DNA of 64,000 nucleotides from Candidatus Atribacteria bacterium (GTDB taxonomy: Bacteria; Atribacterota; JS1; SB-45; 34-128): assembly GCA_003451675.1 (NCBI GenBank), contig DMCY01000093.1, positions 1-64,000 on the forward strand, read 5' to 3'. Shown piece after piece: positions 43,916 through 58,973 of the stretch (within the stretch, counting starts at the first letter, position 1; each line of letters begins with the position of its first letter). Under the pieces are notes generated by a model that had not been told where the DNA came from, searched no databases, and saw nothing but the letters and a program-made list of their open reading frames with translations. A program made the translations under genes and the position numbers.

Positions 43916-44920
43916 CTATTCCTTGCAGTCCCCTCTCTTCTCTTTCAGGGCTTTTAGAATCTTTTCCGGAGTGATAGGAAGGTCGCAGATTCTTGCCCCT
44001 GTGGCATCATAAATGGCATTGGCAATGGCCGGAGCAGTGGCAATAGTAGCCGGTTCCCCGATTCCCTTGGCTCCAAAAGGCCCTTCTGAATCTTCGTTTT
44101 CTACTATCCGAGTAGTGAAGAGAGGAGTGTCCATAGAAGTAGGAATTAGATAACCGGTTAAATCCGGATTCAAGGTGATGCCTTCTTTAACAACCTGCTC
44201 TTCCATCAGAGCCATACCTATCCCCTGGACGGTTCCTCCTTCTATCTGCCCTTCCACGTTCTTAGGATTTACAGCTTTACCGATATCTGCCGTAGTATAC
44301 ACATTTAATACTTGAACAATACCCGTATCGGTATCAACTTCCACTTCAACCACCTGGGTAACAAAGGTATAAGCCACATAAACTTTTTCGCCCTGTCCGG
44401 TTTTGGGGTCGGGTTTATCAGTGTGAGGGAAGAAGGACGCTTCTGCCTTTAAACAATCACCTTTTTCTTTTACCCTCTTGGCTAATTCCCAATAACTTAT
44501 TTTATTATTTGGATTATCATTTCTAAAAACATAACCATCTTTTATTCCTAATTCTACATAATTGCTTCTAAACTCAATACTGGCATAATGATAAATATTA
44601 CTCAACAACCCTTCTGAAGCCTTTTTCACTGCATTGCCAGTAAAAAATGTCTGCCGGGTTGCTGAAGAAGAGCCGGAATTTTTAGTTAAATGAGTATCGC
44701 CAGGAATAATTCTGATTACCTCCGGCTTCACCTTTAAAACCTCTGCTGCAATCTGAGTAATTACAGTTAAAACACCCTGTCCTACATCTGCTGCAGCAGT
44801 TCTTATTAGAATCTTTCCCTCATCTTCAACTTCTGCTGAAGCAATGGAGTGGTCAGGAAATCCTTCTCCATAACCAAAACCGAACATAATAGTAGCTATT
44901 CCTCTCCCACGTTTCTTCAT
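43916..44920 (-). CDS. Molybdenum hydroxylase large subunit, C-terminal half
   Basis: About 334 residues covering the second half of xanthine-dehydrogenase-type molybdopterin subunits. TAAADVGQGVLTVITQIAAE, SSSATRQTFFTGNAV and the C-terminal GAKGIGEPATIATAPAIANAI are visible; the last contains the active-site glutamate. The ATG overlaps the stop of the preceding half in an ATGA, with GGAGG 7 nt upstream, so re-initiation can make two polypeptides from one message. Together the halves equal a normal subunit of about 767 residues. A frameshift in a once-single gene is the alternative reading. Confidence 0.85.
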   Translation of the reverse strand: MKKRGRGIATIMFGFGYGEGFPDHSIASAEVEDEGKILIRTAAADVGQGVLTVITQIAAEVLKVKPEVIRIIPGDTHLTKNSGSSSATRQTFFTGNAVKKASEGLLSNIYHYASIEFRSNYVELGIKDGYVFRNDNPNNKISYWELAKRVKEKGDCLKAEASFFPHTDKPDPKTGQGEKVYVAYTFVTQVVEVEVDTDTGIVQVLNVYTTADIGKAVNPKNVEGQIEGGTVQGIGMALMEEQVVKEGITLNPDLTGYLIPTSMDTPLFTTRIVENEDSEGPFGAKGIGEPATIATAPAIANAIYDATGARICDLPITPEKILKALKEKRGDCKE

Positions 44921-46218
44921 AGTCTTCCCTCCTTCCATTCCTCCCAGCCAGCTAAATCTACCGCTCCTTTAATGGTCTCTTTCACTCCTACACTATGGGT
45001 CAATACCTGCCCATTGGGGGTAGAAGAACCGATACTATAGGCATTTTGTAAACGGAATTGAACCGGGTCAATCCCCAATTTATGAGCTAAAATATCCATC
45101 TGGGATTCATAAGCAAAAGCCATCTGAGTAGCTCCAAAACCACGCATCGCTCCCGCGTAAGTATTGTTAGTATAAACAGTATAGGCCACACCTTTTACAT
45201 TATCTACATTGTAAGGCCCCGTACAATGATACATACCTTTATGTACTACAGCTGGACCACTGGAGGCATAAGCCCCAGTATCGCCAATCACTTCCACCTG
45301 CCAGGCAGTTAAATAACCTTCTTTAGTCGCTCCAGTTTTTGCTCGAACAATAAAAGCGTGCCGTTTAGATTGAGTAATCATTGATTCTTCTCTAGTATAA
45401 GTGAGTTTAACTGGCTTTTTAGTAATCATTGCCGCTAAAGCCAGATGGATATGAACCGAGATATCTTCTCTCTTACCAAAGGCACCTCCGATAACTGGTT
45501 GAATAATCCTTATCTTTTCTTTAGGTAAACTTAAAGATTGGGCAATATCTGCCTGAGTGTCATGAAGCCATTGAGTAGCTACCCAGAGTTTGATAATCTC
45601 AGTTTCCGGGTCAAAAACCCCCACCCCAGCCTCTACCTGAAGGGGAACCTGATCTAAAAAGCTTGTTCTGTATTCATTTTCTACAACCACATCTGCCTGG
45701 GCAAAACCTTTTTTTATGTCCCCCTTTTCTAGGTAATGGGTAGCCAGGATATTGCCATCTTGGTGAATAAGAGGGGCATCTTTTTCCATAGCTCGCAAGG
45801 GGTCGGAAATTATTTCTAATTCTTCTACTTCCACCTCGATTAATTTAACTGCCTTAGACGCGATCTCTTTACTTTCGGCAATTACTATTGCCAAAGCATC
45901 ACCCATATAACGCATTTTCTGACCAACTCCAACAAGAACCGGTTGGTCTTTAATAATCAAACCAAAATTTTTAACCCAGGGGATGTCAGCAGCAGTGATT
46001 ATCCTTACTACCCCTGGTAATTTTTGTGCTTTACTAATATCTATTCGGCGTAAATAAGCATGGGGATAAGTGGCTCTTTTAATCTTTATATACAACATAT
46101 CATCAAAATATATATCATCAGCATATATAGCCTTGCCGGTTACTTTGTCATAGGCATCTACTTTGAAAATATTTTTACCTACATATTCTTTAGGCATCTT
46201 CTTCACCCCTTCCCCCAT
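44917..46218 (-). CDS. xdhA: Molybdenum hydroxylase large subunit, N-terminal half
   Basis: 433 residues covering the N-terminal alpha/beta hammerhead domain (about 20-130, VTGKAIYADDIYF), the molybdopterin-contact loop GGAFGKREDISVHI and the AGAMRGFGATQMAFA block of purine-type hydroxylases. It ends in GWEEWKEGRL, just where the second half begins. It overlaps the 2Fe-2S subunit gene by 29 nt; the ATG before PKEYVGKNIFKVD is another possible start. The substrate is probably a purine or another N-heterocycle. Confidence 0.9.
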   Translation of the reverse strand: MGEGVKKMPKEYVGKNIFKVDAYDKVTGKAIYADDIYFDDMLYIKIKRATYPHAYLRRIDISKAQKLPGVVRIITAADIPWVKNFGLIIKDQPVLVGVGQKMRYMGDALAIVIAESKEIASKAVKLIEVEVEELEIISDPLRAMEKDAPLIHQDGNILATHYLEKGDIKKGFAQADVVVENEYRTSFLDQVPLQVEAGVGVFDPETEIIKLWVATQWLHDTQADIAQSLSLPKEKIRIIQPVIGGAFGKREDISVHIHLALAAMITKKPVKLTYTREESMITQSKRHAFIVRAKTGATKEGYLTAWQVEVIGDTGAYASSGPAVVHKGMYHCTGPYNVDNVKGVAYTVYTNNTYAGAMRGFGATQMAFAYESQMDILAHKLGIDPVQFRLQNAYSIGSSTPNGQVLTHSVGVKETIKGAVDLAGWEEWKEGRL

Positions 46219-46693
46219 CTCTACTGGATAACCTATCTGCCGCTAATCTGATAGCATCAAATATTTTTTGATAACCGGTACAGCGGCAGAGGTTTCCAGA
46301 AATACCCCGCTTTATTTCTTCTTCGGTAGGATGGAGATTTTCTTCGAGCATTTTTTTAGCAGCTAAAATCATTCCCGGGGTACAGAATCCGCATTGAATT
46401 GCCCCGCTCTCTATAAAAGCCTCTTGAACTGGATCCAGACCTTTGTCATCTCCTACTCCTTCAATAGTAGTGATAACTGCTCCATCAGCCTGAGGCGCCA
46501 GCACTAAACAGGATGCTACTAACTCACCATTCATTATCACTGTGCAGGCTCCACATTCACCTTTTCCGCAACCTTCTTTGGTTCCGGTTAAATGCAGGTC
46601 ATCTCTTATTAAATCCAGTAAACGAGTTGAAGGAGTAGTCTCTACCTTTTTTTTCTTACCATTAATGGTCAACTCTATTATTAATTTAGTCAT
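46190..46693 (-). CDS. xdhC: Molybdenum hydroxylase 2Fe-2S subunit
   Basis: 167 residues. The plant-type 2Fe-2S cluster cysteines are in GCGKGECGACTV plus a later Cys. The second cluster is in IQCGFCTPGMI and SGNLCRCTGYQ. It passes electrons from the molybdenum centre to the FAD subunit. The gene overlaps both neighbours (4 nt and 29 nt). Confidence 0.95.
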   Translation of the reverse strand: MTKLIIELTINGKKKKVETTPSTRLLDLIRDDLHLTGTKEGCGKGECGACTVIMNGELVASCLVLAPQADGAVITTIEGVGDDKGLDPVQEAFIESGAIQCGFCTPGMILAAKKMLEENLHPTEEEIKRGISGNLCRCTGYQKIFDAIRLAADRLSSRDGGRGEEDA

Positions 46694-47619
46694 TTATATG
46701 ACCTCCACCAACTTGAATACACTTCTTCTAAGGCATTGATCATTATTTCTTTGGCTACATCTTTGCGGTATTCCCTGGTCCCTCTAATATCATCAATAGG
46801 TGAAATCTTGTCTTCTACCATCTGTCCTAACTGATTAAAATCTAATTGATTAAAGTTTTTTCCTATCATTCTTTCTCTAATCTCTTTTATTTGAATAGGA
46901 GTGGGTGCTACTGAGCCCAAGCAGGCTCTTGCCTCTTTAATTGTTTTATTATCTTCAGCCATTTTAACTACCAAAGCTAAAGTAATAGTGGCAATGGCTA
47001 AAGCCCTTCTCTTACCAATTTTAATCCAGCTATCATAAGTTTTTTCATATGGCAGAGGAAGGATTACCTGAGTCAATAATTGGTCTGGTTTTATAATAGT
47101 TTGTTTAGGTCCTACAAAAAATTCTTCCGCGGGAATTAGCTCTTCTTTTTGAACAGAGAGCAATTTAAATTGAGCGTCATAAGCCATTAAAGGAGGCAAA
47201 AGGTCACCAGCTGGTGAGGCATTAACAATATTCCCTCCCACGGTCCCTCGATTTCTTATCTGGGGAGAACCAATATCAGCAGCTGCTTGACTTAAGATGG
47301 GAAAGTACTTTTTGATATCTTCAGAGTTTTCTAATTGGGAGTGGGTAACCGTCGCCCCAATTTCCATTTGATTCTTGCTTATTCTTATCTTCTTTAATTC
47401 TATAATGTTTTTTAAATCTAACCAGTTATTGATTTCATAAAGTCGGTCATAATATTGAACTAACAGGTCGGTCCCTCCAGCAATTATTTTAATTTCTTCT
47501 CCATATTTAGATAAAATTTCCAGTGCTTCCTCTATTTTCTGAGGAGCAAAATACTGAGAGAGAGCAGTTTTCTGATAAGTTTTTTGGCATCCCTTTAAAT
47601 CTCCGAATGATTCTTCCAT
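46690..47619 (-). CDS. xdhB: Molybdenum hydroxylase FAD subunit
   Basis: 309 residues of the CO-dehydrogenase/xanthine-dehydrogenase FAD-binding family. KIIAGGTDLLVQYYD and IGSPQIRNRGTVGGNIVNASPAGDLLPPL are the two FAD-binding signatures. It is the first gene of the hydroxylase operon. An N-terminal stretch of about 18 residues precedes the domain, so a later start is possible. Repeats fill the region upstream. Confidence 0.94.
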   Translation of the reverse strand: MEESFGDLKGCQKTYQKTALSQYFAPQKIEEALEILSKYGEEIKIIAGGTDLLVQYYDRLYEINNWLDLKNIIELKKIRISKNQMEIGATVTHSQLENSEDIKKYFPILSQAAADIGSPQIRNRGTVGGNIVNASPAGDLLPPLMAYDAQFKLLSVQKEELIPAEEFFVGPKQTIIKPDQLLTQVILPLPYEKTYDSWIKIGKRRALAIATITLALVVKMAEDNKTIKEARACLGSVAPTPIQIKEIRERMIGKNFNQLDFNQLGQMVEDKISPIDDIRGTREYRKDVAKEIMINALEEVYSSWWRSYK

Positions 47620-47979
47620 AAGTCGGATTCACCACCTCCTAATCCAATATATATTTTATCACTTAAAAAATGCTCTTGCCAAGTTATTATAAAATATAGT
47701 ATCGAGTATATAGTATCCAGTATCGAGTTAAGAAAGAGAAGAAAAGATACAAAAAAGTAGTATTCTTATTTCTACCTAACTATACCACTAAAGTTTACAC
47801 TAACTTATTGCGTATTGCGTATCGCCATACAACTCTTTTCTGTCATTCCCGTGGAAACAGGAACTTATCTTTAAATATTATTCTGGGTTCCCACTTTCGT
47901 GGAAATGACATAAGATACTAGAATGATACTGGTAAAGCCAAAATTACATTACTATCGTCATAAATTTTGAATTTTAAAG
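47620..47979. repeat. Repeat-containing spacer between ygfK and the hydroxylase operon
   Basis: 'agtatcgagtatatagtatccagtatcgag', 'gcgtattgcgtatcgcc' and a 'gtcattcccgtggaaacaggaa' palindromic unit at 47841-47912. No gene is seen. The promoter of the hydroxylase operon should lie just upstream of 47619 but I cannot pick it out. Confidence 0.65.
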
Positions 47980-50900
47980 TTAAATTAAATAATTGTAATC
48001 TTTTAATACAGTGCTTATTATTGCGCTGGCTTTTTTAAGTTCTTTGATGTTATAATCATCCGGACATTGTGAATCTACAGGAATCAATTTACCGTCTTTA
48101 CCCAATTTTAATTTCCACAGATTATCATTCAACCTCAGGGTTATTAACTGACTATCGGTGTAATCGGCAGCTATAAAACCGTTATTAGTGCTATTTTCAA
48201 AGTCCTCTTTGGTTGTAAAAAGAGTCAGCTTATCTTTATATGGTTTGCCATCATAGGGACAAAATGTAGCACAGTTTCCACATTCATTACACAGTGCATC
48301 AAGATGGAGAATCTGAAAGACATCTTGAAAATCTTCTTTCTTATCAATCTCAATCGCCACATTTGCCCGATTTGGACAGACATCCATACATTTATTGCAG
48401 ATAATCTTACACTCTAGGCACCGCTCTGCTTCACTTTCAGTTATTACCCTATCGTCTTCGGATATTACCTCAGGAATGAGACGACTTTTTTTACGGTAAA
48501 TCTCGGAAATCTGTTGTTTTTTATTGAATTTCAGTTTAAAATCCTTATCTAAACCTTTCCAGCCTGGCATCTCCTTTTTAATAATAGCCTCTGCTGCCTT
48601 TCGGGCATCGGCAATAGATTGGACCACGGTCGAGGGTCCACGATAGGCATCGCCGCCTATAAAAACATTTTTCACATTAGTCTCCAGAGTTTCTGGGTCT
48701 GCATAAGGCTTGTTTCCAGTCTCAAGTTTTATTCCTTGAGCAGTTAGGAACCTGATATCTGGAATCTCTCCAATAGCACTGATTACAGAATCTACATCAA
48801 TTTCTTCGGTCTCTTCAGTGGGGACAGGACGTCGACGACCACTTTCATCAGGTTCGCCTAAAGTCATTCGACGGCATTTTAGAATACCTTTTTGAGAAAA
48901 TGATTCTGGTAACAAGAGGGATTTGAAAATTATCCCTTCTTCAAGTGCGTGTTCATATTCCTCACGGTCTGCCGGCATTTCTTCCTCAGTACGACGGTAA
49001 ATGATAAAAACCTTCTCAACACCGTCAACCTTCAGCGCTGCTCTTGCGCTATCCACAGCAGTATTCCCCCCTCCTATTATGGCAACCCTTCGACCAAGAT
49101 TAAGAGCTCCTGCATTTTTATTAAAAGACCTTAAAAAATCCAGAGCTTTATAGTTGTTGCTATTGTCACACGCTAACTTTAGTTCCCTTGAAACTTCTGC
49201 ACCAATCCCGATAAAGATATATTTATATCCCTCTTTACTTAAATTATTAATAGAAAACTCTTCTGATACCCCAAACTGGAAATCCACCCCTAGTGTTTTG
49301 ATAATCGCAATATCTTTTTCGATAGCAGAGACAGGGATTCTAAAATTAGGCAGTATATGGCTCACTACCCCACCGGGAGAATCTTGTTTCTCAAATACAG
49401 TAACCTTAAATCCAGCTTTAGCCAGAAAATAAGCTACAGATAATCCTGCTGGTCCTGCACCGATAACCGCTACTTTTGTATCCAACTCATTAAACTGTTC
49501 ACCAGTGATGTAACTCTTAACATTGTAGGTAACTTCTCCCTGTTCAGCCGCAATCTTTTTCACTTCGCGAATATTAACCGCTCCTTCATAATCGAGTCGA
49601 GTACAATTATACATACACTGATGGTCACAAATATAGCCAGTTATATGGGGAAGCGGATTTTTTGAATAGATAAGTTCCAAAGCTTTATTATATTGTCCAC
49701 TACCTGCTAATCGAATGTATTCAGGAATATCCTGTCGGATGGGACAGGAAAAAACACAGGGAGCTGTATAGCAATCAATTAAAGGTAGTTTTTGATCAAC
49801 GCAAATTTCCTTCGTGCCTCTCCAACCCTTCCGATAATATTTTTCCCCAAGGGCTTCTTTGGCTAATTTTTCGAGTTTTTTCACATCAATAATTTTGAGT
49901 TGCCTCTTCCCGCTAATAATTGGTTCTAATTTTCGGGCCATCTCCACCATTCTAAGATAGCCACCTGGTTTTAAGAGGTTGGTAGCCATTGTAATTGGTT
50001 TAATTCCTGTTTCAAAAATCTGAAGGATATTTAGCTGGGATGCTCCTCCTGAGTAAGATATAGGAAGAGTCCCTTTAAACTCCTTCGATAAACGGGAAGC
50101 TAAAGTGATAGTAATCGGGAAGAGAATGCGTCCCGATAAATACATCTCCTCTCCCGGAAGGACACCGAGGGTATTTACCGTTCCCAGCGTATTGGAGAGT
50201 TTAACCCCAAAATTACAGCCACAATCAGTGGCTACTTTAGAAAGTCGTTCAAGCATACCTATCGCATCATTCCATTGCAAATCTTTAGTAAATGTAGATT
50301 CTTTAAGGGATATATAATCGAAACCCAGGTTATCCAGTATTTCCCTGACCTTTCTAAATCCCAGGAGAGTTGGATTTAATTTCACATAAGTATTAAGTTT
50401 TTTTTCTGTCAAAAGATATTTACAGATCGCTTCTATTTCAAGGGGAGGACATCCATGCATAGTAGAAAGTGTTACAGAGTGAGTAATAAAAGGGGAAATA
50501 GTTCTGGAAATATTCTTTAGGTTTTCAATATTTCCTTTTAGATTATTAATCTCTTGAAAATTTGTTCCTTGAACAAAAAAATCTAATTCCTCCAGATAAC
50601 GTTTAAATACTGGTTGTTCCGAGGCATCAATTAAACCATTAATAAATGAATCCATACGTTGTGTTTTAATTCCCTCTAAGTCATAACCAACACTCATATT
50701 AAAAATAAAAGAAGGTTTTGTAGTAGCTCGTATATCAAGAACTGATTCTATAAAGTGAAGCAGTATCCAGGCTTTAACATATTCACTATATGCCTGTTCC
50801 AGAGAAAGTTCAGTAGACCATTCGGTATTATAACCCTCATCTCGGGCATCAATACAGGGCTTGTCAAATTGCAGGCTATCTAGTTTTTGTACGGTTTTAA

Positions 50901-51144
50901 GCTCAAAAAAGCGCCCCCCAACCAGATAGGCAGCGATAATATTCTGAGTCAACTGAGTGTGGGGCCCTGCTGCTGGCCCTATAGGAGTGTCACAAATTTC
51001 GTTAAATATCTGAATACTTTTTGGGTTTTCTTTCTTAAAAAATTGTGATTCTGGTATCCCAAAAATGGTTCGCTGTTTCCTATATTCCTCAGTTATCCAA
51101 TAAAGTAGTCGTTTAAAGGATATTGGCCGCATAATATCTCCCAT
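47980..51144 (-). CDS. ygfK: YgfK-type iron-sulfur flavoprotein (putative selenate reductase subunit)
   Basis: 1054 residues in three parts. The N-terminal region (about 1-430) resembles dihydroorotate/dihydropyrimidine dehydrogenase barrels (HSVTLSTMHGCPPLEIEAI). The middle glutamate-synthase-beta-like region has an iron-sulfur Cys set (CYTAPCVFSCPIRQDIPEYI), an FAD Rossmann motif (VIGAGPAGLSVAYFLAKAGF) and an NAD(P) motif (AIIGGGNTAVDSARAAL). The ferredoxin-like C-terminus has CLECKIICNKCMDVCPNRAN and CNECGNCATFCPYDGKP. YgfK genes mark clusters of selenium-dependent molybdenum hydroxylases; here the hydroxylase operon is next to it. Its exact reaction is not established. Confidence 0.9.
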   Translation of the reverse strand: MGDIMRPISFKRLLYWITEEYRKQRTIFGIPESQFFKKENPKSIQIFNEICDTPIGPAAGPHTQLTQNIIAAYLVGGRFFELKTVQKLDSLQFDKPCIDARDEGYNTEWSTELSLEQAYSEYVKAWILLHFIESVLDIRATTKPSFIFNMSVGYDLEGIKTQRMDSFINGLIDASEQPVFKRYLEELDFFVQGTNFQEINNLKGNIENLKNISRTISPFITHSVTLSTMHGCPPLEIEAICKYLLTEKKLNTYVKLNPTLLGFRKVREILDNLGFDYISLKESTFTKDLQWNDAIGMLERLSKVATDCGCNFGVKLSNTLGTVNTLGVLPGEEMYLSGRILFPITITLASRLSKEFKGTLPISYSGGASQLNILQIFETGIKPITMATNLLKPGGYLRMVEMARKLEPIISGKRQLKIIDVKKLEKLAKEALGEKYYRKGWRGTKEICVDQKLPLIDCYTAPCVFSCPIRQDIPEYIRLAGSGQYNKALELIYSKNPLPHITGYICDHQCMYNCTRLDYEGAVNIREVKKIAAEQGEVTYNVKSYITGEQFNELDTKVAVIGAGPAGLSVAYFLAKAGFKVTVFEKQDSPGGVVSHILPNFRIPVSAIEKDIAIIKTLGVDFQFGVSEEFSINNLSKEGYKYIFIGIGAEVSRELKLACDNSNNYKALDFLRSFNKNAGALNLGRRVAIIGGGNTAVDSARAALKVDGVEKVFIIYRRTEEEMPADREEYEHALEEGIIFKSLLLPESFSQKGILKCRRMTLGEPDESGRRRPVPTEETEEIDVDSVISAIGEIPDIRFLTAQGIKLETGNKPYADPETLETNVKNVFIGGDAYRGPSTVVQSIADARKAAEAIIKKEMPGWKGLDKDFKLKFNKKQQISEIYRKKSRLIPEVISEDDRVITESEAERCLECKIICNKCMDVCPNRANVAIEIDKKEDFQDVFQILHLDALCNECGNCATFCPYDGKPYKDKLTLFTTKEDFENSTNNGFIAADYTDSQLITLRLNDNLWKLKLGKDGKLIPVDSQCPDDYNIKELKKASAIISTVLKDYNYLI

Positions 51145-51191: not shown

Positions 51192-52385
51192 TTACCATTT
51201 AAAGAATTCTTTTACCAACTCACTATGATCACCTTTGCAAATCAGATGGTGATTACCCAACGAACTTTGTAAAAAATATTTTATATCTTCATCTATCCTC
51301 ATCCTGATTTGTGTACGGCATAGATTTTCTTTGTTTAAATTTTCTAAAATCTCCCCACCGGATACAAAATAATTTTTAGCATCGCTGGAGAGTTTAAAGA
51401 TAGTGGCTTCCCCTTCCTCAATGACTCCCTGAATCCCCACTCCCAGACCTGATTCGAAGTGGGTTTTTAAATAAAATTTATCAGGCATATTTAAAGGCAA
51501 AGTACAATGAGCTAAAATTACTTCATTCTGGTTAATATCAATACTGGAAGGATTAGCCATAAAAATAGGCCCGCCAGTTAAATAGTGCAGAATAACCATA
51601 GATACAAGAGCGGGAATATCGCCTTCACAACCAGCTATAATCCCCTCATCGTTTAATAAGGAAAGACCAAGGCAACCGGTATTTTTATAAATTTCCAGCA
51701 GGTCAAAACATCTTACGGTAATGCCATCAAGTTTATATTTGTTTATGATAGCTTTAAACCCGCTATATATTTTCAGTGCCCCATCGATTGATTTACTATC
51801 AAACTCTTTATTCTTAATATCGTTTAATTTAGGATGGTCAAAACGATGACCCCGGTCAATTTCTTTAACCAATTCATCCATTTCAATATCAATTAATGAA
51901 ATCCCTAAAGTTTCTTTTACCTTCAGATAATCTACATCACTGGCTATAAGCCAATCGGACGGCTTACCGATAACTCCTAATTTAGTGGAGGCTAATTTAC
52001 TTTTCACTTCAAATATTTTACTAAGTTCCTTTATCCTCCTGGCAATATAATCACTGTCACCATGGATTATCTCTACTTTTTCTCTTTTCTGTTTTAAAAA
52101 GGAAGCAATCTCTAAAGAGGCGGCAAAAGAATTATGCCATCTACTGGATAAAAGCAGGTAAGGTCCATTAATTTGGGTAAAAATCTGTTTAAAATTTCCC
52201 TCCACTCCGCCAGATTTAATAAAGATAAGAGAAAAATAATTTCTTTGGTTAAAATCTATTAAACTTATATTCTCAAACTTTTCACCTAATTTTTCTTCAA
52301 TATCTGTTAAAAAACCTTGCAAAGTACTATCAATATGTTTTTCATTGTGTACTTCTGAAACCAGATTATATAATCCTATTTTCAT
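51192..52385 (-). CDS. L-fucose/L-arabinose isomerase-like protein
   Basis: 397 residues. The C-terminal half resembles the fucose isomerase C-terminal domain (GCEGDIPALVSMVILHYLTGGPIFMANPSSID, then EVILAHCTLPLN). The N-terminal half is like the family's Rossmann-type domains. Members are sugar isomerases or proteins of unknown function. It is 47 nt upstream of ygfK on the same strand, perhaps its operon leader gene. No sugar genes are adjacent, so the substrate is unknown. Confidence 0.7.
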   Translation of the reverse strand: MKIGLYNLVSEVHNEKHIDSTLQGFLTDIEEKLGEKFENISLIDFNQRNYFSLIFIKSGGVEGNFKQIFTQINGPYLLLSSRWHNSFAASLEIASFLKQKREKVEIIHGDSDYIARRIKELSKIFEVKSKLASTKLGVIGKPSDWLIASDVDYLKVKETLGISLIDIEMDELVKEIDRGHRFDHPKLNDIKNKEFDSKSIDGALKIYSGFKAIINKYKLDGITVRCFDLLEIYKNTGCLGLSLLNDEGIIAGCEGDIPALVSMVILHYLTGGPIFMANPSSIDINQNEVILAHCTLPLNMPDKFYLKTHFESGLGVGIQGVIEEGEATIFKLSSDAKNYFVSGGEILENLNKENLCRTQIRMRIDEDIKYFLQSSLGNHHLICKGDHSELVKEFFKW

Positions 52386-52837: not shown

Positions 52838-52866
52838 TTGTAAAGTCTTGCAATACAATTTATAAT
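52838..52866 (+). promoter_or_regulatory. Promoter of the selC-selA-selB-selD cluster
   Basis: TTGTAA (52838-52843) and TATAAT (52861-52866) are 17 nt apart; transcription would start about 28 nt before the tRNA. Confidence 0.6.
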
Positions 52867-52900
52867 TAAAAATAAAATATCTTAAAAAGTTAAATTAAGA

Positions 52901-52999
52901 GGGAGCGGATAGGCTCTGGTGGGCCTTGCGGACTTCAAATCCGTGGGCGGTAATTAATGGTAATTGCCGCGGTGGGTTCGATTCCTACCCCTCCCGCCA
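52901..52999 (+). tRNA. selC: tRNA-Sec (selenocysteine, anticodon UCA)
   Basis: A 99-nt tRNA with encoded CCA. Anticodon loop CTTCAAA within stem CGGA/TCCG gives anticodon TCA. The D-stem is six base pairs with a 4-nt loop (AGGCTC-TGGT-GGGCCT), the variable arm is long (GGGCGGTAATTAATGG...), and the extended acceptor has one C-C mismatch. All are hallmarks of bacterial tRNA-Sec. It is charged with serine and converted by SelA, encoded next. It carries UGA-directed selenocysteine with SelB. Confidence 0.97.
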
Positions 53000-53043
53000 T
53001 TAATATTTATCTTCAAATATCACCAAAGGAGAAGTTTTGCTAA

Positions 53044-54462
53044 TTGAAGAATAATGAGAATAATAAAGATTTAAACAATAATAATTTAAATTTATTACTA
53101 TCCAAAATACCCAGTGTAGAAATAATTTTACAAAATAAAGCCCTAAAACCTTTAATACAAAAATATTCCCGAAAAATACTTACCCAAACAGTAAGAAAAG
53201 TTATCTCCGAAGAGAAAAAAAATGCTCGCAAAAATAGCCACCTCTATTCAGCACAAGAAAGGATAAATAAAATTAAAGAATATTTAGAAAAAGAAAATGT
53301 GTCTTATCTGCAAAAAGTTATAAATGGCAGTGGGGTAATCCTCCATACCAATCTGGGAAGAGCACCTCTGGGCGAAGAAATACTTAAAACAATCCAGAAT
53401 ACACTTCAGGGTTATATTAATTTAGAGTATGATCTTATAGAAGGGAATAGAGGGAAAAGAGGAGAAATTGTCGAAAAATTACTCTGTACCCTCAGCCATT
53501 CAGAAAAAAGCCTAATAGTTAATAATAATGCTGGTGCCATATTCTTGATACTAAATACCCTGGCTAAAAACAAAGAAGTGATTGTCTCCAGAGGAGAATT
53601 AGTGCAAATTGGGGGAGGATTTCGCATTCCAGAGATATTGGAACAGAGCGGTGCTCACCTTCGAGAAGTAGGAACTACTAACCAGACTTTTATTGGTGAT
53701 TATGAAAAAGCAATTAATGAAAATACTTCCCTAATCCTAAAAGTCCATCAAAGTAATTTTCATATGAACGGTTTCGTTCACCAAGTTGAAGTTAAAGAAC
53801 TTAAAAAATTAGGGGGAAAATATAATTTACCGGTAGTAGTAGACTTGGGAAGTGGGACATTCTTAGCCACCGAAACTTTTGGACTAAAGCACGAACCAAC
53901 TGTTCAAGAAAATATTAGGGCAGGTGCTGATATTGTCTGTTTTAGTACAGATAAACTCTTAGGAGGCCCTCAGGGAGGAGCTATTTGTGGAAAAGAGATT
54001 TATCTGAAGAAAATATCCCAACACCCTTTATTTCGAACCCTCAGAGTAGACAAAATGGCTTTAACTATCTTACAAGAAGTTTTATTGTATTATTTAAAGG
54101 ATGAAGCGGTTACTAAAATTCCCATCTGGAAGATGATTTCCTGCCCCTTAGAAAAAATTGAACTACGCAGCCAAAATATCTGTCAAGAATTAAAAGAAGA
54201 AGGTATCCCAGCATTTACTAAAGAAGGGCAAACTGCTATTGGGGGAGGTTCTTTGCCCGGACAAACTTTACCCACAAAATTGATAATCATCAAACCCCCT
54301 TGTCCAGTAGAAATTTTTTCTAAAGAATTGCGATTATCCCACCCTCCTCTTCTGGGAAGAAAAGAAAAAGAATATTTTGTTTTAGATCCACGTACTATTG
54401 ACCCTTCAACAGATAATTTAGTAATAAAAATAATTAAATCAGTTTATTCCAAGATGAAATAA
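53044..54462 (+). CDS. selA: L-seryl-tRNA(Sec) selenium transferase
   Basis: 472 residues, TTG start with AGGAG upstream. It is a fold-type I PLP enzyme with HTNLGRAPL near residue 100, NNNAGAIFLILNTL, and the PLP lysine in CFSTDKLLGGPQGGAICG. It converts seryl-tRNA(Sec) to selenocysteyl-tRNA(Sec) with selenophosphate. It follows tRNA-Sec and precedes selB by 12 nt, so the operon is selC-selA-selB-selD. Confidence 0.96.
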   Translation: MKNNENNKDLNNNNLNLLLSKIPSVEIILQNKALKPLIQKYSRKILTQTVRKVISEEKKNARKNSHLYSAQERINKIKEYLEKENVSYLQKVINGSGVILHTNLGRAPLGEEILKTIQNTLQGYINLEYDLIEGNRGKRGEIVEKLLCTLSHSEKSLIVNNNAGAIFLILNTLAKNKEVIVSRGELVQIGGGFRIPEILEQSGAHLREVGTTNQTFIGDYEKAINENTSLILKVHQSNFHMNGFVHQVEVKELKKLGGKYNLPVVVDLGSGTFLATETFGLKHEPTVQENIRAGADIVCFSTDKLLGGPQGGAICGKEIYLKKISQHPLFRTLRVDKMALTILQEVLLYYLKDEAVTKIPIWKMISCPLEKIELRSQNICQELKEEGIPAFTKEGQTAIGGGSLPGQTLPTKLIIIKPPCPVEIFSKELRLSHPPLLGRKEKEYFVLDPRTIDPSTDNLVIKIIKSVYSKMK

Positions 54463-54474
54463 AAAGAGGTTTCT

Positions 54475-56364
54475 ATGTTTGTTTTCGGTACAGCAGGACA
54501 TATTGACCATGGTAAAACAGCCTTAATCTATGCTCTAACTTCCATAGATACTGACCGTCTACCCGAAGAAAAAGAAAGAGGTATGACTATTGATTTGGGG
54601 TTTGCCTGGATGAAACTTCCCTCGGGAGAAAAAGTTGGAATAGTCGATGTTCCTGGTCACGAAAACCTGGTAAAGAATATGATAGTTGGAGCAACCGGAA
54701 TCGATGCGGTAATTTTAGTTGTTGATGCAAAGGAAGGATGGATGCCTCAAACTGAAGAACATTTCCAAATTACTGAACTCCTCCACATAAAGTATGGTAT
54801 CATTGCTATAACTAAAACTGATCTGGTAGACCAAAGTAGAGTAAATATTGTAGAAAGACAGATTAAAGAGAGGTTAAAAAATACTGTCCTCTTCAATGCA
54901 CCAATAGTAAAAGTAAGTACGGTAAAAAAAACAGGAATTGAACAAATAAAATTAGCCATTCAAAACTTGATTCCTCAGATGAAACCCCAGAGAGATATAG
55001 GGAAACCAAGACTATACATCGACCGGGTCTTTAATATTAAAGGAAGTGGCACAATAGTAACCGGTACTCTTAAAGGAGGCACTCTTTATAAAGGAATGGA
55101 AGCAACCATCTTCCCTTCTTATCAAAAAACTCGCCTGAGAAGTTTACAAACTTACAAAGAGAAAGTAGAAAAAGCTCTTCCGGGAAGCAGAGTAGCCCTT
55201 AACTTAGCAGGAATAGAAAAAAACGAACTTCATAGAGGAGACATCGTCTTTGGAACTAAACAGATTAAAGCCAGTAAATACTTAGATGTCCAGATACAAC
55301 TTCTCTCCCAACCTCAACTTAAAAATTATTCCTTAAAAAATCGGTCAGAAGTAGTTTTTTTTACTGGAACCAAAGAGACCCTGGCTAAAATATTTTTTCC
55401 CGAAAACAAACCTCTTTGTCCTGGTGAAACAGGATTCGCCCAACTTCGCTTTAAAGAACCGCAGGCAACATTTTTGGGAGACCGCTTTATCTTAAGAATA
55501 CCGAGCCCTCCTAAAACTATTGGTGGGGGATTAATTATCGACCCTTTAGCCTACAAGCATCATTTTAAAGACAAAGACATAGTTAATCTTTTACAGAAAA
55601 GCGCAAAACTTGACTTAAGAGAATTAATCTTAGCTGAACTAAAAAAGGATAACTTTATTAAAAAGGATAATTTATTAATTAATAGTAATTTTTCGTATTC
55701 AAACATTATGAATATAACAGAGTTGTTAGAACAAGAAGGTAAATTAATTGCTACCTCTTCCTGGCTAATTGATAAAAACTACTGGCAAGAGCAGATAATA
55801 AATTTTATGAAAAGATTGAACCAGGAATATGAATTATCTCCTTTGCAAATCGGCTTCCCCTTAAACAAATTTCAAAGTTATTTCTATTATCTTAAACCAG
55901 AAATATTTAATGGCCTGATAAAATCTCTGATTAAGGCAAATAAGATAAATTTAAAAAGGGGAATGATATTTTTACCTTCCCGCAAACCTAAACTTTCTGC
56001 TTCCCAAAAAGAGTTAATGGATAAAATATTAAAAATCCTGAAAGAAAATTTTACCAATCCCCCCAAGGAGAAAACACTTATCTCTCAAATTGCTGGCAGC
56101 AAAGAAATTATAGATTTTTTGATTCAAGAAGGAGAAATTATCAAATTAAGCGACGGAATTTTACTAGATAGTAAAAATTATGATATTATGAAAAATAAAT
56201 TAATAGATTTTTTAAAAGTAAAGGGCTCCATCTCTATTGGTCAGGTGAGGGACTTATTAGGGATAAGCCGCAAATATATAATTCCTTTGCTTAATAAGAT
56301 GGATGAGGAAAATATTACTCAACGAAAAGAAAATGTTAGAATATTAAAAAATAAACTTAGCTAA
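54475..56364 (+). CDS. selB: Selenocysteine-specific elongation factor
   Basis: 629 residues. The N-terminal GTPase domain has GTAGHIDHGKTALIYAL (P-loop), ERGMTIDLGF (switch), VDVPGHE and TKTD. EF-Tu-like domains 2 and 3 follow. Winged-helix repeats from about residue 380 to the end bind the SECIS hairpin (SQKELMDKILKIL, GSISIGQVRDLLGISRKYIIPLL). It brings Sec-tRNA to the ribosome at UGA codons, and the SECIS hairpins it needs are visible in two genes downstream. Confidence 0.96.
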   Translation: MFVFGTAGHIDHGKTALIYALTSIDTDRLPEEKERGMTIDLGFAWMKLPSGEKVGIVDVPGHENLVKNMIVGATGIDAVILVVDAKEGWMPQTEEHFQITELLHIKYGIIAITKTDLVDQSRVNIVERQIKERLKNTVLFNAPIVKVSTVKKTGIEQIKLAIQNLIPQMKPQRDIGKPRLYIDRVFNIKGSGTIVTGTLKGGTLYKGMEATIFPSYQKTRLRSLQTYKEKVEKALPGSRVALNLAGIEKNELHRGDIVFGTKQIKASKYLDVQIQLLSQPQLKNYSLKNRSEVVFFTGTKETLAKIFFPENKPLCPGETGFAQLRFKEPQATFLGDRFILRIPSPPKTIGGGLIIDPLAYKHHFKDKDIVNLLQKSAKLDLRELILAELKKDNFIKKDNLLINSNFSYSNIMNITELLEQEGKLIATSSWLIDKNYWQEQIINFMKRLNQEYELSPLQIGFPLNKFQSYFYYLKPEIFNGLIKSLIKANKINLKRGMIFLPSRKPKLSASQKELMDKILKILKENFTNPPKEKTLISQIAGSKEIIDFLIQEGEIIKLSDGILLDSKNYDIMKNKLIDFLKVKGSISIGQVRDLLGISRKYIIPLLNKMDEENITQRKENVRILKNKLS

Positions 56365-56394
56365 ATAACTTATCAGAAAGGAGACAGAAAAGGT

Positions 56395-57432
56395 TTGATA
56401 GACAAAAGAAAATTAACTCAAATGGCTTCTGCTGCTGGATGAGCAGCTAAATTAAATCCTAAAGATCTCGGTGAGGTCTTAAAAAAAATTAATGTTCTAA
56501 AAGATAATAATTTATTAGCTGGGTTTGAAAAATATGAAGATGCTGCTGTTTATCGATTAAACGATAAACAAGCCCTTATTTTTACCCTGGATGTCATTAC
56601 CCCGATAGTTGATGACCCATACACTTTTGGACAAATTGCCGCAGCTAATGCCTTAAGTGATATTTTTGCTATGGGAGGAAACCCTCTTCTTGCTTTAAAT
56701 ATAGTTGCTTTTCCCGAAGATAGAGTAGATGATCTTGGACTTATTTTAAAAGGAGGGGCAGATAAAGTTGCAGAAGCTGGCGCTCTTTTAGTGGGTGGAC
56801 ATACCATAAAAGATAAAGAACCAAAGTATGGATTGGCTGTAGTGGGATTAATTCATCCTCAGAATATTATTTATAATGATACTCCTCAAGAAGGAGATTT
56901 ACTGATATTAACCAAACCCCTGGGTACCGGAATATTATCTACTGCCCTTAAGGCTAATATTGCCGAGCCAGACACTGTAAAAAAAGCTATTTTTTGGATG
57001 GCCAAACTAAATCAACTTCCCAAAGAACTATTAAAATTATCCATACACGGTTTGACTGATATCACCGGTTTTGGTCTGATTGGACATTTAAGTGAGATGC
57101 TGACTAAAAATAAACTGGGGGCTGAATTGTGGATTAATGATATTCCGGTAATAGACGGCCTGGATAAATATATTTCTTCGGGGATGATTCCGGGAGGGAC
57201 ATTGAAAAACAAGGAAATTTACTCCTGTTCGGTTGAAACAAAACAGGACATTCCTTCAGAAAAGGAAATCATCCTATATGATGCGCAAACCTCAGGAGGA
57301 TTATTACTATCTATTAGTCCTGAACAGGCAGAAAAAGCAAAAGAATTGCTCTTCCAAAAAGGATTTACTTCCAGCCAAGTTATTGGTAAAGTCATAAAAG
57401 TTTCCTCTGGTAAAAAAATACGGATAATTTAA
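56395..57432 (+). CDS. selD: Selenide, water dikinase, itself a selenoprotein
   Basis: 345 residues if the in-frame TGA at 56440-56442 is read as selenocysteine (codon 16). The start is TTG, with AAAGGAGA 6 nt upstream. The N-terminus reads LTQMASAAG-U-AAKLNPKDL, the family motif where other SelD proteins have Cys or Sec. The rest, with FTLDVITPIVDDPYTFGQIAAANALSDIFAMGG and GHTIKDKEP, is a complete SelD. It makes selenophosphate from selenide and ATP. Conventional calling would lose the first 92 residues by starting at an internal ATG (56671). Confidence 0.95.
56440..56478 (+). promoter_or_regulatory. SECIS element of selD
   Basis: After the TGA (56440-56442) the stem GATCTC (56464-56469) pairs with GAGGTC (56473-56478). 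One T-G pair is included, and the loop is GGT, or CGGTG if the top pair opens. The loop lies 27 nt after the UGA and contains G and U, as bacterial SECIS loops do. Confidence 0.75.
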
Positions 57433-57467
57433 ATAATATATTTTAAGATAGATATATTATTTTTTTG
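57432..57467 (+). terminator. Intrinsic terminator after selD
   Basis: AATAATATAT (57432-57441) pairs exactly with ATATATTATT (57452-57461) and is followed by a T-run. It overlaps the last base of the selD stop codon. Confidence 0.75.
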
Positions 57468-57492
57468 TTTTTCCAGAAAGGAGGTGATTATC

Positions 57493-58128
57493 ATTAAAAA
57501 TAAAAAATTATTGCTCAGTTTAAGTGTATTTTTTATTGCATTTTTATTTACTGGTTGTTTTCTTTTCAACATTTCACCATCAATTGAATCTGATCCAATA
57601 ACTACTGCTAAAGAAGGTGTGGCCTATACTTATGATGTCGATGCCACTGACCTTAACGGAGACACTTTAACTTATTCCCTAATTATTTATCCCTCTGGTA
57701 TGACCATTAATTCTACCACCGGGGTAATCAGTTGGACTCCGATAGAAAGTCAAATTGGTGAAAACGAAGTCGTGGTAGAGGTCTCTGATGGTAGTAAATC
57801 AGACACTCAATCGTTTACTATTACAGTAAATGAAGCCTTACTTACTTCGATAGAAGTACTTCCTACCACTATGTCGATAGCAGCAGGTAGCTCAAAGAAA
57901 ATAACTTCCGTTACTGCTCATTATGATAATGATACTTCTGCTGATATAGCACTTAGTGCTTGTACCTATGCATCAAATAACACTAAGGTCACAATCGCTA
58001 ATGGAGTAATTACAGTATTGTCATCATGCTCAACTACTACCGCGATTATCACCGTAAGTTATACAGAAGGCGAGATAACTAAAAGTGATACCGTAAATAT
58101 TACTGTTACTTCAAGTGGCGGCGGCTGA
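57493..58128 (+). CDS. Secreted lipoprotein with Ig-like domains, probable ATT start
   Basis: About 211 residues. The signal peptide KNKKLLLSLSVFFIAFLFTGC ends in a lipobox cysteine. A putative-Ig (cadherin-like) domain at about 25-110 (YTYDVDATDLNGDTLTYSL, GVISWTP) and a BIG2-type domain at about 115-210 (VLPTTMSIAAGSSKKI) follow. Only a GTG (57484) exists as a standard start, but it lies inside the Shine-Dalgarno AAAGGAGGTGA (57477-57487). An ATT at 57493 stands 8 nt after GGAGG and gives a standard signal peptide, so initiation at ATT is the better reading. The function is unknown; it sits between two selenoprotein genes. Confidence 0.78.
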   Translation: MKNKKLLLSLSVFFIAFLFTGCFLFNISPSIESDPITTAKEGVAYTYDVDATDLNGDTLTYSLIIYPSGMTINSTTGVISWTPIESQIGENEVVVEVSDGSKSDTQSFTITVNEALLTSIEVLPTTMSIAAGSSKKITSVTAHYDNDTSADIALSACTYASNNTKVTIANGVITVLSSCSTTTAIITVSYTEGEITKSDTVNITVTSSGGG

Positions 58129-58141
58129 GGGAGCTAAGTTC

Positions 58142-58160
58142 CACCGGTAGTTTACCGGTG
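58142..58160 (+). terminator. Hairpin after the lipoprotein gene
   Basis: CACCGGTA-GTT-TACCGGTG is a perfect 8-bp stem 14 nt past the stop. No T-run follows, so it may protect the mRNA 3' end rather than terminate. Confidence 0.55.
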
Positions 58161-58204
58161 AAAATAAAACCTTTCTAAAATTTAAAATTAATTTACCATT
58201 AATG

Positions 58205-58233
58205 TTGACAAAATTACTCATATATAGTATTAT
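58205..58233 (+). promoter_or_regulatory. Promoter of the HesB-like selenoprotein gene
   Basis: TTGACA (58205-58210) and TATTAT (58228-58233) are 17 nt apart, about 55 nt before the start codon. It suggests the selenoprotein has its own promoter. Confidence 0.7.
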
Positions 58234-58288
58234 TACATTTACATGTTAATATCAAATAAATAATTTAATTATTTAGAAAGGATAAGAA

Positions 58289-58591
58289 ATGTCGATAAAA
58301 GTAACCAACAAAGCTTTAGGGGAAATAAAAAAAGTTTTAGAACAAAAAAATGCAACGAACAAAAAGATAAGAATATTTTTAGCAGGAATTGGCTGAGGCG
58401 GCCCAAGCTTTAATCTTGCTCTGGATGAGCAAAAAGAAAATGACGAAATCTACTCAGAAGATGGTATTGATTTTGTGGCAGATAAAAGTTTAATAGATCA
58501 ATATAAAGGTTTTAAGATTGACTATTCTAACTTTTTTCTTCAGAGAGGATTTTTAGTCCATCCCTACAGCGGCCCAGCTTCTACTTGTTAA
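58289..58591 (+). CDS. HesB-like selenoprotein
   Basis: 100 residues when the TGA at 58394-58396 is read as selenocysteine (codon 36). ATG start with AGAAAGGATAAGA upstream. The middle reads FLAGIG-U-GGPSFNLALDEQ and the end GPASTC. This matches HesB/IscA-type small proteins in which Sec takes the place of the first conserved cysteine. Related proteins carry or bind iron-sulfur clusters; for the selenoprotein form the role is unknown. It is preceded by its own promoter and followed by a strong terminator. It has no stop-free frame as an ordinary gene and would be missed. Confidence 0.93.
58394..58432 (+). promoter_or_regulatory. SECIS element of the HesB-like selenoprotein
   Basis: TTGCTC (58416-58421) and GAGCAA (58427-58432) form a perfect 6-bp stem around loop TGGAT. 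It begins 19 nt after the UGA, and the loop 25 nt after it. A G in the second loop position suits bacterial SECIS rules. Confidence 0.85.
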
Positions 58592-58602
58592 CAATAGAAA
58601 AC

Positions 58603-58645
58603 AAAAAACCTATCAGGAGTTAAATCTCCCGATAGGTTTTTTATT
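58603..58645. terminator. Bidirectional intrinsic terminator
   Basis: AAACCTATC-A-GGAG pairs with CTCC-C-GATAGGTTT around a short loop, with T-runs on both strands. It separates the convergent HesB-like selenoprotein and DUF6506 genes. Confidence 0.9.
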
Positions 58646-58655
58646 TTTCAATTTT

Positions 58656-58973
58656 TTAGGAAAACCAACCTTCTCTTTTCATTACTTCTCTGGTTACCTT
58701 ACTACTCGGGCCATCTCCTCGAGCTACTGAAATTCCTACATTCTCTCCTACTGCTTTGGATATCTCTGCCACATTCTGATGGGTAAATCCCGGGCAGAGG
58801 AGTACGGAATGAATACCCTCTTCTCTAACCAACTTTTTGCAAACTTCTACCGCCTGCTCCTGATTCTTTACTAACCTTACCAGGAGTTTGTATTTAGGTG
58901 TTTCGACTACACACTGGTGTTTTTCCGGTTCTGCATCAGGGGTATGAGCGATAAAAACTACATTAAAAGCCAT
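58656..58973 (-). CDS. DUF6506 family protein
   Basis: 105 residues. Begins MAFNVVFIAHTPDAEPEKHQC and contains LCPGFTHQNVAEISKAVG and SVARGDGPSS, the pattern of the small proteins annotated as DUF6506. The function is unknown. No signal or membrane segment is seen. It is single, with a strong terminator shared with the selenoprotein gene. Confidence 0.75.
   Translation of the reverse strand: MAFNVVFIAHTPDAEPEKHQCVVETPKYKLLVRLVKNQEQAVEVCKKLVREEGIHSVLLCPGFTHQNVAEISKAVGENVGISVARGDGPSSKVTREVMKREGWFS

Follow-up and report, generated by a model that had tools for sequence, protein, structure and literature searches.

Which proteins does the selenocysteine (Sec) apparatus of an Atribacterota genome serve, and how did the lineage come to have it? 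The questions arise from a stretch of 64,000 nucleotides (positions 1 to 64,000 of contig DMCY01000093.1, assembly GCA_003451675.1, Candidatus Atribacteria bacterium; hereafter the window) that, judged by its sequence, encodes a complete bacterial Sec decoding set (tRNA-Sec, SelA, SelB and SelD). A sequence-only reading had described two selenoprotein clients beside this machinery, SelD itself and a second protein, here assigned to the HesB-like family, and had suggested that the whole island could behave as a transferable unit. Both clients stand, each with a conserved UGA, but the count was incomplete, since a third candidate had been overlooked between them: a gene for a lipoprotein with immunoglobulin-like (Ig) domains. 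This lipoprotein probably represents a new family of selenoproteins whose Sec sits on a flexible tail at the C-terminus, and the locus is very probably a chromosomal, vertically inherited Sec locus of one Atribacterota order, which would serve the three adjacent clients.

A conserved UGA at the end of a lipoprotein gene

Read conventionally, the open reading frame (ORF) 57484-58128 gives a plain lipoprotein that ends in SSGGG at a UGA; in the same frame two sense codons, for Gly and Ser, follow before a UAA. Our search of the phylum covered 50 genomes: 24 belong to the order of the window, represented by families f1 and f2, and 26 to five further families. The lipoprotein gene was read at the DNA level in 18 copies, which come from the window and 11 other genomes. 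These counts leave out the copies truncated at contig ends (L125/G008, L131/G016 and the first copy of L133/G017) as well as that of G001, which is near-identical to the window copy and has the same tail. G001 was the closest relative genome compared (44% of sampled words in common with the window) and holds the same locus.

The UGA is present in all 18 copies, although these are related and not 18 independent draws, whereas UGA makes up 29 of 172 other stops (ORFs of at least 120 amino acids in 14 regions, the window and 13 loci, chosen for holding sel genes). When the UGA is read through, the true stop comes after 1 to 11 codons and is UAA in 13 copies and UAG in 5. In an alignment of 13 members of the family (A1) the GG-UGA is invariant and the linker before it varies in length. 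Cys160 is also invariant in A1, and both Cys25 and Cys160 are found in 34 of 34 rows of a second alignment (A6, the window plus 33 of 120 listed homologues picked to span identity).

A bSECIS-like hairpin beyond the UGA

The legend of Figure 2A in PMC13188914 gives, for the bacterial selenocysteine insertion sequence (bSECIS), a loop of 3-9 nt with a G in the first two positions, a stem of 4-16 bp, a distance of 16-37 nt from the UGA and a minimum free energy (MFE) of -7.5 or lower. The hairpin behind the window lipoprotein lies within all these limits, with a 3-nt loop (GUU), 8 bp, a distance of 21 nt from the UGA and an MFE of -13.9 from UGA to hairpin (z -3.33) or -10.9 for the isolated hairpin. 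It stands in the 3' untranslated region (UTR), and no U-run follows it by eye. A hairpin of 6-9 bp is found 20-27 nt after the UGA in 16 of the 18 copies, with the loops GUU (11), GUC (1) and GGU (4), the last of which is common to these four copies and the hairpin of SelD. With one further, imperfect copy counted, 12 of 17 hairpins begin only after the true stop, 4 overlap it and 1 is within the coding part. Of the 18 copies, 8 were folded with their flanks, and all of these reach -7.5 or lower.

Such hairpins are rare at other stops of the same regions. A strict rule (G[GU]N triloop, stem of at least 6, published bSECIS spacing), set after the family was seen, was satisfied at 9 of 10 lipoprotein UGAs. 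Among the other stops it held for 1 of 172 (Fisher p 2e-13) and for none of the 29 that are UGA (p 5e-8), the lipoprotein copies being related. A looser one (loop 3-9, G in the first two positions, stem of 6, E ≤ -4) gave 8 of 10 against 3 of 172. The stem also covaries when compared with 500 shuffles, which ignore relatedness, in an alignment trimmed around the hairpin, which favours the hairpin somewhat: both sides have changed in 6 of 8 stem pairs, there are 27 double-change cells vs 10.6 in the shuffles, and the covariation score is 0.512 vs 0.242 (standard deviation 0.034), with none of the 500 as high and 90.6% of the cells pairing.

A covariance model of the hairpin (R1) was run on 24 genomes with E up to 5; in each genome the 150 best first-look candidates were scored. 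The matches at E ≤ 0.001 number 16 and are all lipoprotein-family copies, each of them in the training set except that of G001. Among the weaker matches 15 loci were read, taking the match to lie at base 1501, which does not hold for a locus truncated by a contig end (L203 yielded nothing), and none has a UGA ending a long ORF. One of these loci, L208 (G001:C9:36603-36639), has a hairpin like that of the family, CCGATA-GTT-TATCGG, behind a short ORF, with GGG-TAG replacing GGG-TGA, and is perhaps a relic. A joint alignment (A4) of the hairpins of SelD and the lipoprotein was set aside as misaligned.

Distribution, database homologues and alternative readings

The family follows SelB. Of the 18 order genomes that have a long SelB match (at least 500 residues, some cut by contig ends), 12 hold UGA-bearing copies; none was found in the 6 without one or in the 26 genomes of other families, where a single weak non-UGA match was seen (G044, E 8.6e-4). 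In the remaining 6 SelB genomes the copies are cut by contig ends (G008, G016) or the contigs end within selB (G005, G007, G009, G013). The homologues of family f1 are located between selD and the HesB-like gene. Those of f2 lie upstream of tRNA-Sec in G015, G018, G020, G021 and G023, and in G016 and G017 the homologue adjoins HesB on a contig with no other sel genes. Three paralogues stand outside the sel locus (two in G011, one in G020); the GG tail is absent from them, the UGA and the hairpin are kept, and two read C-x-x-U (CDTU and CAFU).

Gene callers that stop at the UGA should leave proteins with GG at the end, and 109 of the best 120 of 835 homologues from the database have this ending (P0019, with GG only after the W, is not counted). 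Of the others, 4 continue with W and 7 have different endings, PG in three cases. Outside the phylum, 53 of 132 genomes of another phylum have matches; those listed mostly cover the first Ig domain only, and none of the listed ones has an internal TGA. Two weak relatives occur on viral contigs, and 38 plasmid records match, all at less than 60% identity.

Several observations weigh against a selenoprotein. No Cys stands at the UGA position in any of the best 120 of 835 homologues, so that the Cys/Sec pairing by which such proteins are usually recognized is missing, and the 4 homologues with W may reflect either translation with code 4 or a real UGG. Few residues follow the UGA, and they are not conserved; in L133, L136 and the first copy of L138 a second in-frame UGA precedes the UAG directly. 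As for the hairpin, the second copy of L134, which brings the total to 17 of 18, has a mismatch in the stem, and L178 keeps the UGA with a different hairpin, in which neither of the first two loop positions is a G. When hairpins were folded in isolation, only 3 of 10 came to -7.5 kcal/mol or lower. Two of the five covariation measures are weak: 6 stem pairs have double changes, against 4.3 for the shuffles (as high in 11 of the 500), and there are 10 further pair types, against 11.3 (as high in 461 of the 500). The gap between SelD and HesB is only 125 nt in G010, so the lipoprotein is absent from that locus, and at least 4 of the 18 copies show no lipobox Cys by eye (L133, the second copy of L134, the first of L138, and L177), so lipid anchoring is not general.

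The missing Cys homologue and the short, unconserved tails would suit an ordinary stop at 58126, with a protein ending in GGG and the hairpin as an element of the mRNA 3' end unrelated to Sec; besides, another stop soon after a stop is common. We consider this unlikely, because an ordinary stop does not account for the constancy of the UGA, nor for a hairpin that fits the constraints published in the Figure 2A legend of PMC13188914, lacks a following U-run by eye and is matched at a single one of the control stops, nor for copies that co-occur with SelB and sit at the sel locus.

The UGA and hairpin could also act mainly as a selenium-responsive switch through read-through, with the Sec tail of little use, the target being translation or mRNA stability of HesB in f1 and of tRNA-Sec and selAB in several f2 genomes. 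The place of the gene, near tRNA-Sec or HesB in both families, would agree with this, and so would the unconserved tails. That position relative to the sel genes differs between f1 and f2, however, the paralogues elsewhere in the genome keep UGA and hairpin (two with C-x-x-U), and the protein itself is conserved, with GG-U at the end of linkers of variable length; we find a switch highly improbable.

A lone C-terminal half of an Ig protein was seen in L178 (G018:C23, 9-2210), with the tail GGGG-U-GS. By eye, its neighbours are a permease-like gene, a small protein resembling AhpD/carboxymuconolactone decarboxylase and a VIT1-like gene. Relatives of about 600 amino acids or longer that start with the same Ig-type domain were noticed in L160 (G006:C6), L171 (G001:C51) and L170 (G008:C34); they resemble right-handed beta-helix proteins by eye, and no internal UGA was seen in them.

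Predicted protein and possible role

The selenoprotein that we favour would begin with a signal peptide and the sequence LFTGC before Cys25 (a lipobox by eye), and PF05345 (He_PIG) matches residues 32-116. AlphaFold2, run with the 34-row alignment, predicts an N-terminal helix and two beta-sandwich domains with a mean predicted local distance difference test (pLDDT) of 90.1, and a C-terminal end of low confidence (46 for the last residues). Among solved structures the best matches come from Ig-like and cadherin domains, headed by LigA, at template modelling (TM) scores of 0.3-0.6.

In the mechanism that we propose, SelA would use the selenophosphate made by SelD to form Sec-tRNA, and SelB would bind each hairpin and deliver Sec to the upstream UGA, meeting the loops GGU or GGG in selD, GUU, GUC or GGU in the lipoprotein family and UGGAU in HesB. 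Since only two codons follow the UGA in the window and the hairpin is in the 3' UTR, failed recoding would cost the lipoprotein only its tail. The product is predicted to be exported and lipid-anchored via Cys25, and we infer a surface stalk that would show Sec, a strong nucleophile, on a mobile, disordered, Gly-rich C-terminal tail. Sec could serve there as a redox partner, possibly through a bond with Cys160 or in peroxide or disulfide chemistry, or as a ligand for soft metals or selenium.

The 2026 review PMC13188914 counts 119 selenoprotein families or subfamilies, and its table of these families does not include an Ig-domain lipoprotein. Text searches of the literature, with results judged by title or the opening of the abstract, returned no earlier description of such a selenoprotein; papers on the '-star' and SAO families were outside their coverage, so a prior mention is possible. 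Table 1 of the review lists UXX-star 1 and 2 (NF041114/NF041211), family 2 with the motif GxGU, KCU-star (NF033934) and the Cys-Cys-COOH protein SaoC (NF040734). Going by the names given there, these C-terminal-Sec families are the nearest in kind, with Sec near the stop and a SECIS that would pass it; the lipoprotein differs in being an Ig-fold and mostly lipid-anchored protein. When the 13 A1 members were compared with NCBIfam at E ≤ 10 (HMMER filters applied), the UXX-star, KCU-star and SaoC models did not come up, and the NCBIfam models that do match the window lipoprotein are all far below cut-off. The fold is shared with He_PIG and with other Ig-like domains of surface proteins such as LigA (8gyr); to our knowledge, Sec is not known in any of them. 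The eukaryotic selenoproteins SelK and SelS, of the endoplasmic reticulum membrane, have Gly-rich GGU(G) tails with Sec 1-3 residues from the end and a SECIS in the 3' UTR. Tail and SECIS position are thus alike, but the proteins are unrelated and the SECIS is of the eukaryotic type, and the likeness is at most an analogy.

We would suggest, tentatively and with slightly more doubt than confidence, a class of bacterial surface selenoproteins built from an Ig stalk and one Sec on a Gly tail, with the SECIS usually in the 3' UTR, that would have no Cys counterpart since the tail would exist only for Sec, that would be an analogue of the eukaryotic GGU-tailed selenoproteins and that might be a main reason why the order keeps its Sec machinery, no UGA having been seen in its formate dehydrogenases among the matches listed. 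With 109 of the best 120 of 835 homologues ending at GG, an exported selenoprotein of an uncultured lineage has seemingly been overlooked. If the proposal is true, the range of selenoproteins would take in surface proteins with an Ig fold, most of them lipid-anchored; one family would have its bacterial SECIS in the 3' UTR as the usual arrangement; covarying hairpins would allow selenoproteins to be found where Cys homologues are lacking; and it could be tested why Sec is retained by an order in whose formate dehydrogenases no UGA was seen.

The Sec locus and its two clients of known families

The tRNA-Sec, selA, selB and selD genes and the second selenoprotein of the sequence-only reading were all found where it had placed them, passing curated thresholds (Table 1). 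Nor did we find what it had named as telling against Sec, namely UGAs read as stops and no UGA-containing genes elsewhere. Its gene order following the process (tRNA, SelA, SelB, SelD) holds in the window and is not universal: G016 has selA-selD-tRNA-selB, and in G021 selB and tRNA-Sec are on different contigs. The bounding promoter and strong terminators fared less well, since a promoter-like site and a terminator-like hairpin exist but counts in the region barely differ from shuffles, with 19 promoter-like matches vs 22.2 and 6 terminator-like matches vs 4.9. The best promoter match of the region stands just before HesB, which may for this reason be on a separate transcript.

Table 1. Features of the Sec locus, in coordinates of the window.
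Feature	Position	Strand	Details
Promoter-like site before tRNA-Sec, TTGTAA-17-TATAAT	52838..52866	+	Consensus scan only, 10/12
tRNA-Sec, anticodon UCA	52900..52998	+	ARAGORN; Rfam RF01852 70.1 bits, gathering 47
selA, L-seryl-tRNA(Sec) selenium transferase	53044..54462	+	TIGR00474 535.6 bits, cut-off 267.9; PF03841
selB, Sec-specific elongation factor, C-terminal winged helix	54475..56364	+	TIGR00475 363.9 bits, cut-off 242.25; PF09107
selD, selenophosphate synthetase, selenoprotein	56395..57432	+	UGA 56440-56442 = codon 16; TIGR00476 360.9 bits, cut-off 125, TGA=U
SelD bSECIS-like hairpin, AAGAUCUC-GGU-GAGGUCUU	56462..56480	+	MFE -7.9, z -1.33
Ig-domain lipoprotein, candidate third selenoprotein	57484..58137	+	UGA 58126-58128, UAA 58135-58137; tail SSGGG-U-GS
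Lipoprotein bSECIS-like hairpin, CACCGGUA-GUU-UACCGGUG	58142..58160	+	Past the lipoprotein stop codon
Promoter-like site before HesB-like gene, TTGACA-17-TATTAT	58205..58233	+	Consensus scan, 11/12, best of the region
HesB-like selenoprotein, UxGP motif	58289..58591	+	UGA 58394-58396 = codon 36; TIGR01911 69.7 bits, cut-off 66.35, TGA=U
HesB bSECIS-like hairpin, UUGCUC-UGGAU-GAGCAA	58416..58432	+	UGA-to-hairpin MFE -12.8, z -1.58
Terminator-like hairpin after HesB	58599..58646		Consensus scan: minus strand, 20 pairs; plus-side T-run by eye

Taken alone, SelD and the HesB-like protein are ordinary clients, both families being already known. Sec at the Cys of the SelD N-terminal loop is common in bacteria, and the window SelD has it at this same position: aligned with SelD chain 3u0o, its UGA falls on the Cys of the AGC motif, and the loop AGCGCK of 3u0o corresponds to AGUAAK, with the next Cys of 3u0o replaced by Ala. 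The UGA is present in 13 of 13 copies, whose true stop is UAA (10) or UAG (3), and every copy has the hairpin, with the loop GGU (11) or GGG (2) at +30 from the U of the UGA.

The HesB-like gene of the window is a member of its family (TIGR01911), passing the cut-off with the UxGP motif that Table 1 of PMC13188914 gives for it, and we see no important difference; against NF038090 it scores 81.6 bits, 3.4 bits short of 85. Its UGA aligns with a Cys of 1nwb and is kept in 13 of 13 copies, one of them cut by a contig end. In a search of 41 genomes, 13 had a HesB match, each a single one with exactly one in-frame TGA, and the hairpin loop, at +28, is identical in the 12 copies examined.

Inheritance of the locus

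Long SelB matches occur in 18 of the 24 genomes of the order and in none of the 26 genomes of the other five families, where the best matches are of the 31-37% kind and cover the GTPase part only. Completeness is 63-87% for the 6 genomes of the order without a long match. Since G010, among these, does carry selD and HesB, its lack of SelB probably reflects no more than a gap in the assembly. A SelB fragment in G019 (C150:2871-3305, residues 482-626, 44%), with one internal TGA and no longer SelB match, could mark loss of the Sec trait there.

In a SelA tree of 88 rows (quick search, supported by the Shimodaira-Hasegawa-like approximate likelihood ratio test, SH-aLRT, only) f1 and f2 form one clade each, are sisters and stand apart from 71 SelA rows of other phyla, with a Zixibacteria genome as the nearest outsider. 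Within f1, enough sequence lies upstream in 9 loci; a neighbour resembling the sulfoquinovose isomerase SftI is kept in 8 of them (not in G002) and YgfK in 7; in f2 the gene order at the locus differs. A comparison of gene order and phylogeny, as the sequence-only reading had advised, gives a SelA tree that follows the host and, together with the f1 synteny, points to vertical descent, and a gene order that is not constant between the two families.

The same tree and the f1 synteny lead us to reject, within the reach of these data, the suggested transferable unit, and a recently mobile island seems extremely unlikely. The locus is compact and its GC content (0.30-0.36) is below that of the downstream flank (0.44-0.46), as a mobile unit might be, but the upstream flank is at 0.35-0.41, and none of the ORFs at its edges stood out as a mobile element, although no search was aimed at such elements.

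Other selenium-related genes and neighbours

FdhA is the most widely distributed bacterial selenoprotein family according to PMC13188914, and its model (TIGR01591) matched in 23 of the 24 genomes of the order, 22 over the cut-off. No internal stop was found among the matches listed, and FdhA was set aside as a Sec client, so it does not explain why Sec is retained. GrdA (PF04723) had no match in the 24 genomes, and 14 control genomes were equally silent. The search covered selected families, and other clients may exist.

YqeB, which we take to be a maturation factor for selenium-dependent molybdenum hydroxylases, matched in 13 of the 24 genomes, 12 over the cut-off. In the window, YgfK (TIGR03315, 1442 bits) and what by eye are subunits resembling xanthine dehydrogenase lie at 43916-51144 and run divergently from the sel genes. 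A selenium-dependent molybdenum hydroxylase trait is likely, and with these genes adjoining the locus and the YqeB matches SelD probably serves a second selenium pathway.

The neighbour of tRNA-Sec at 51192-52385, conserved in f1, has no Pfam match at E ≤ 0.001, and its match to SftI is weak and far below the cut-off. On the other side HesB is adjoined by a DUF6506 protein (58656-58973, minus strand), which also stands beside HesB in G001, G002, G010 and G012 and not in G003 and G004. Far from the locus, at 2049-2232 on the minus strand, the window carries a cobalamin riboswitch (91.7 bits).

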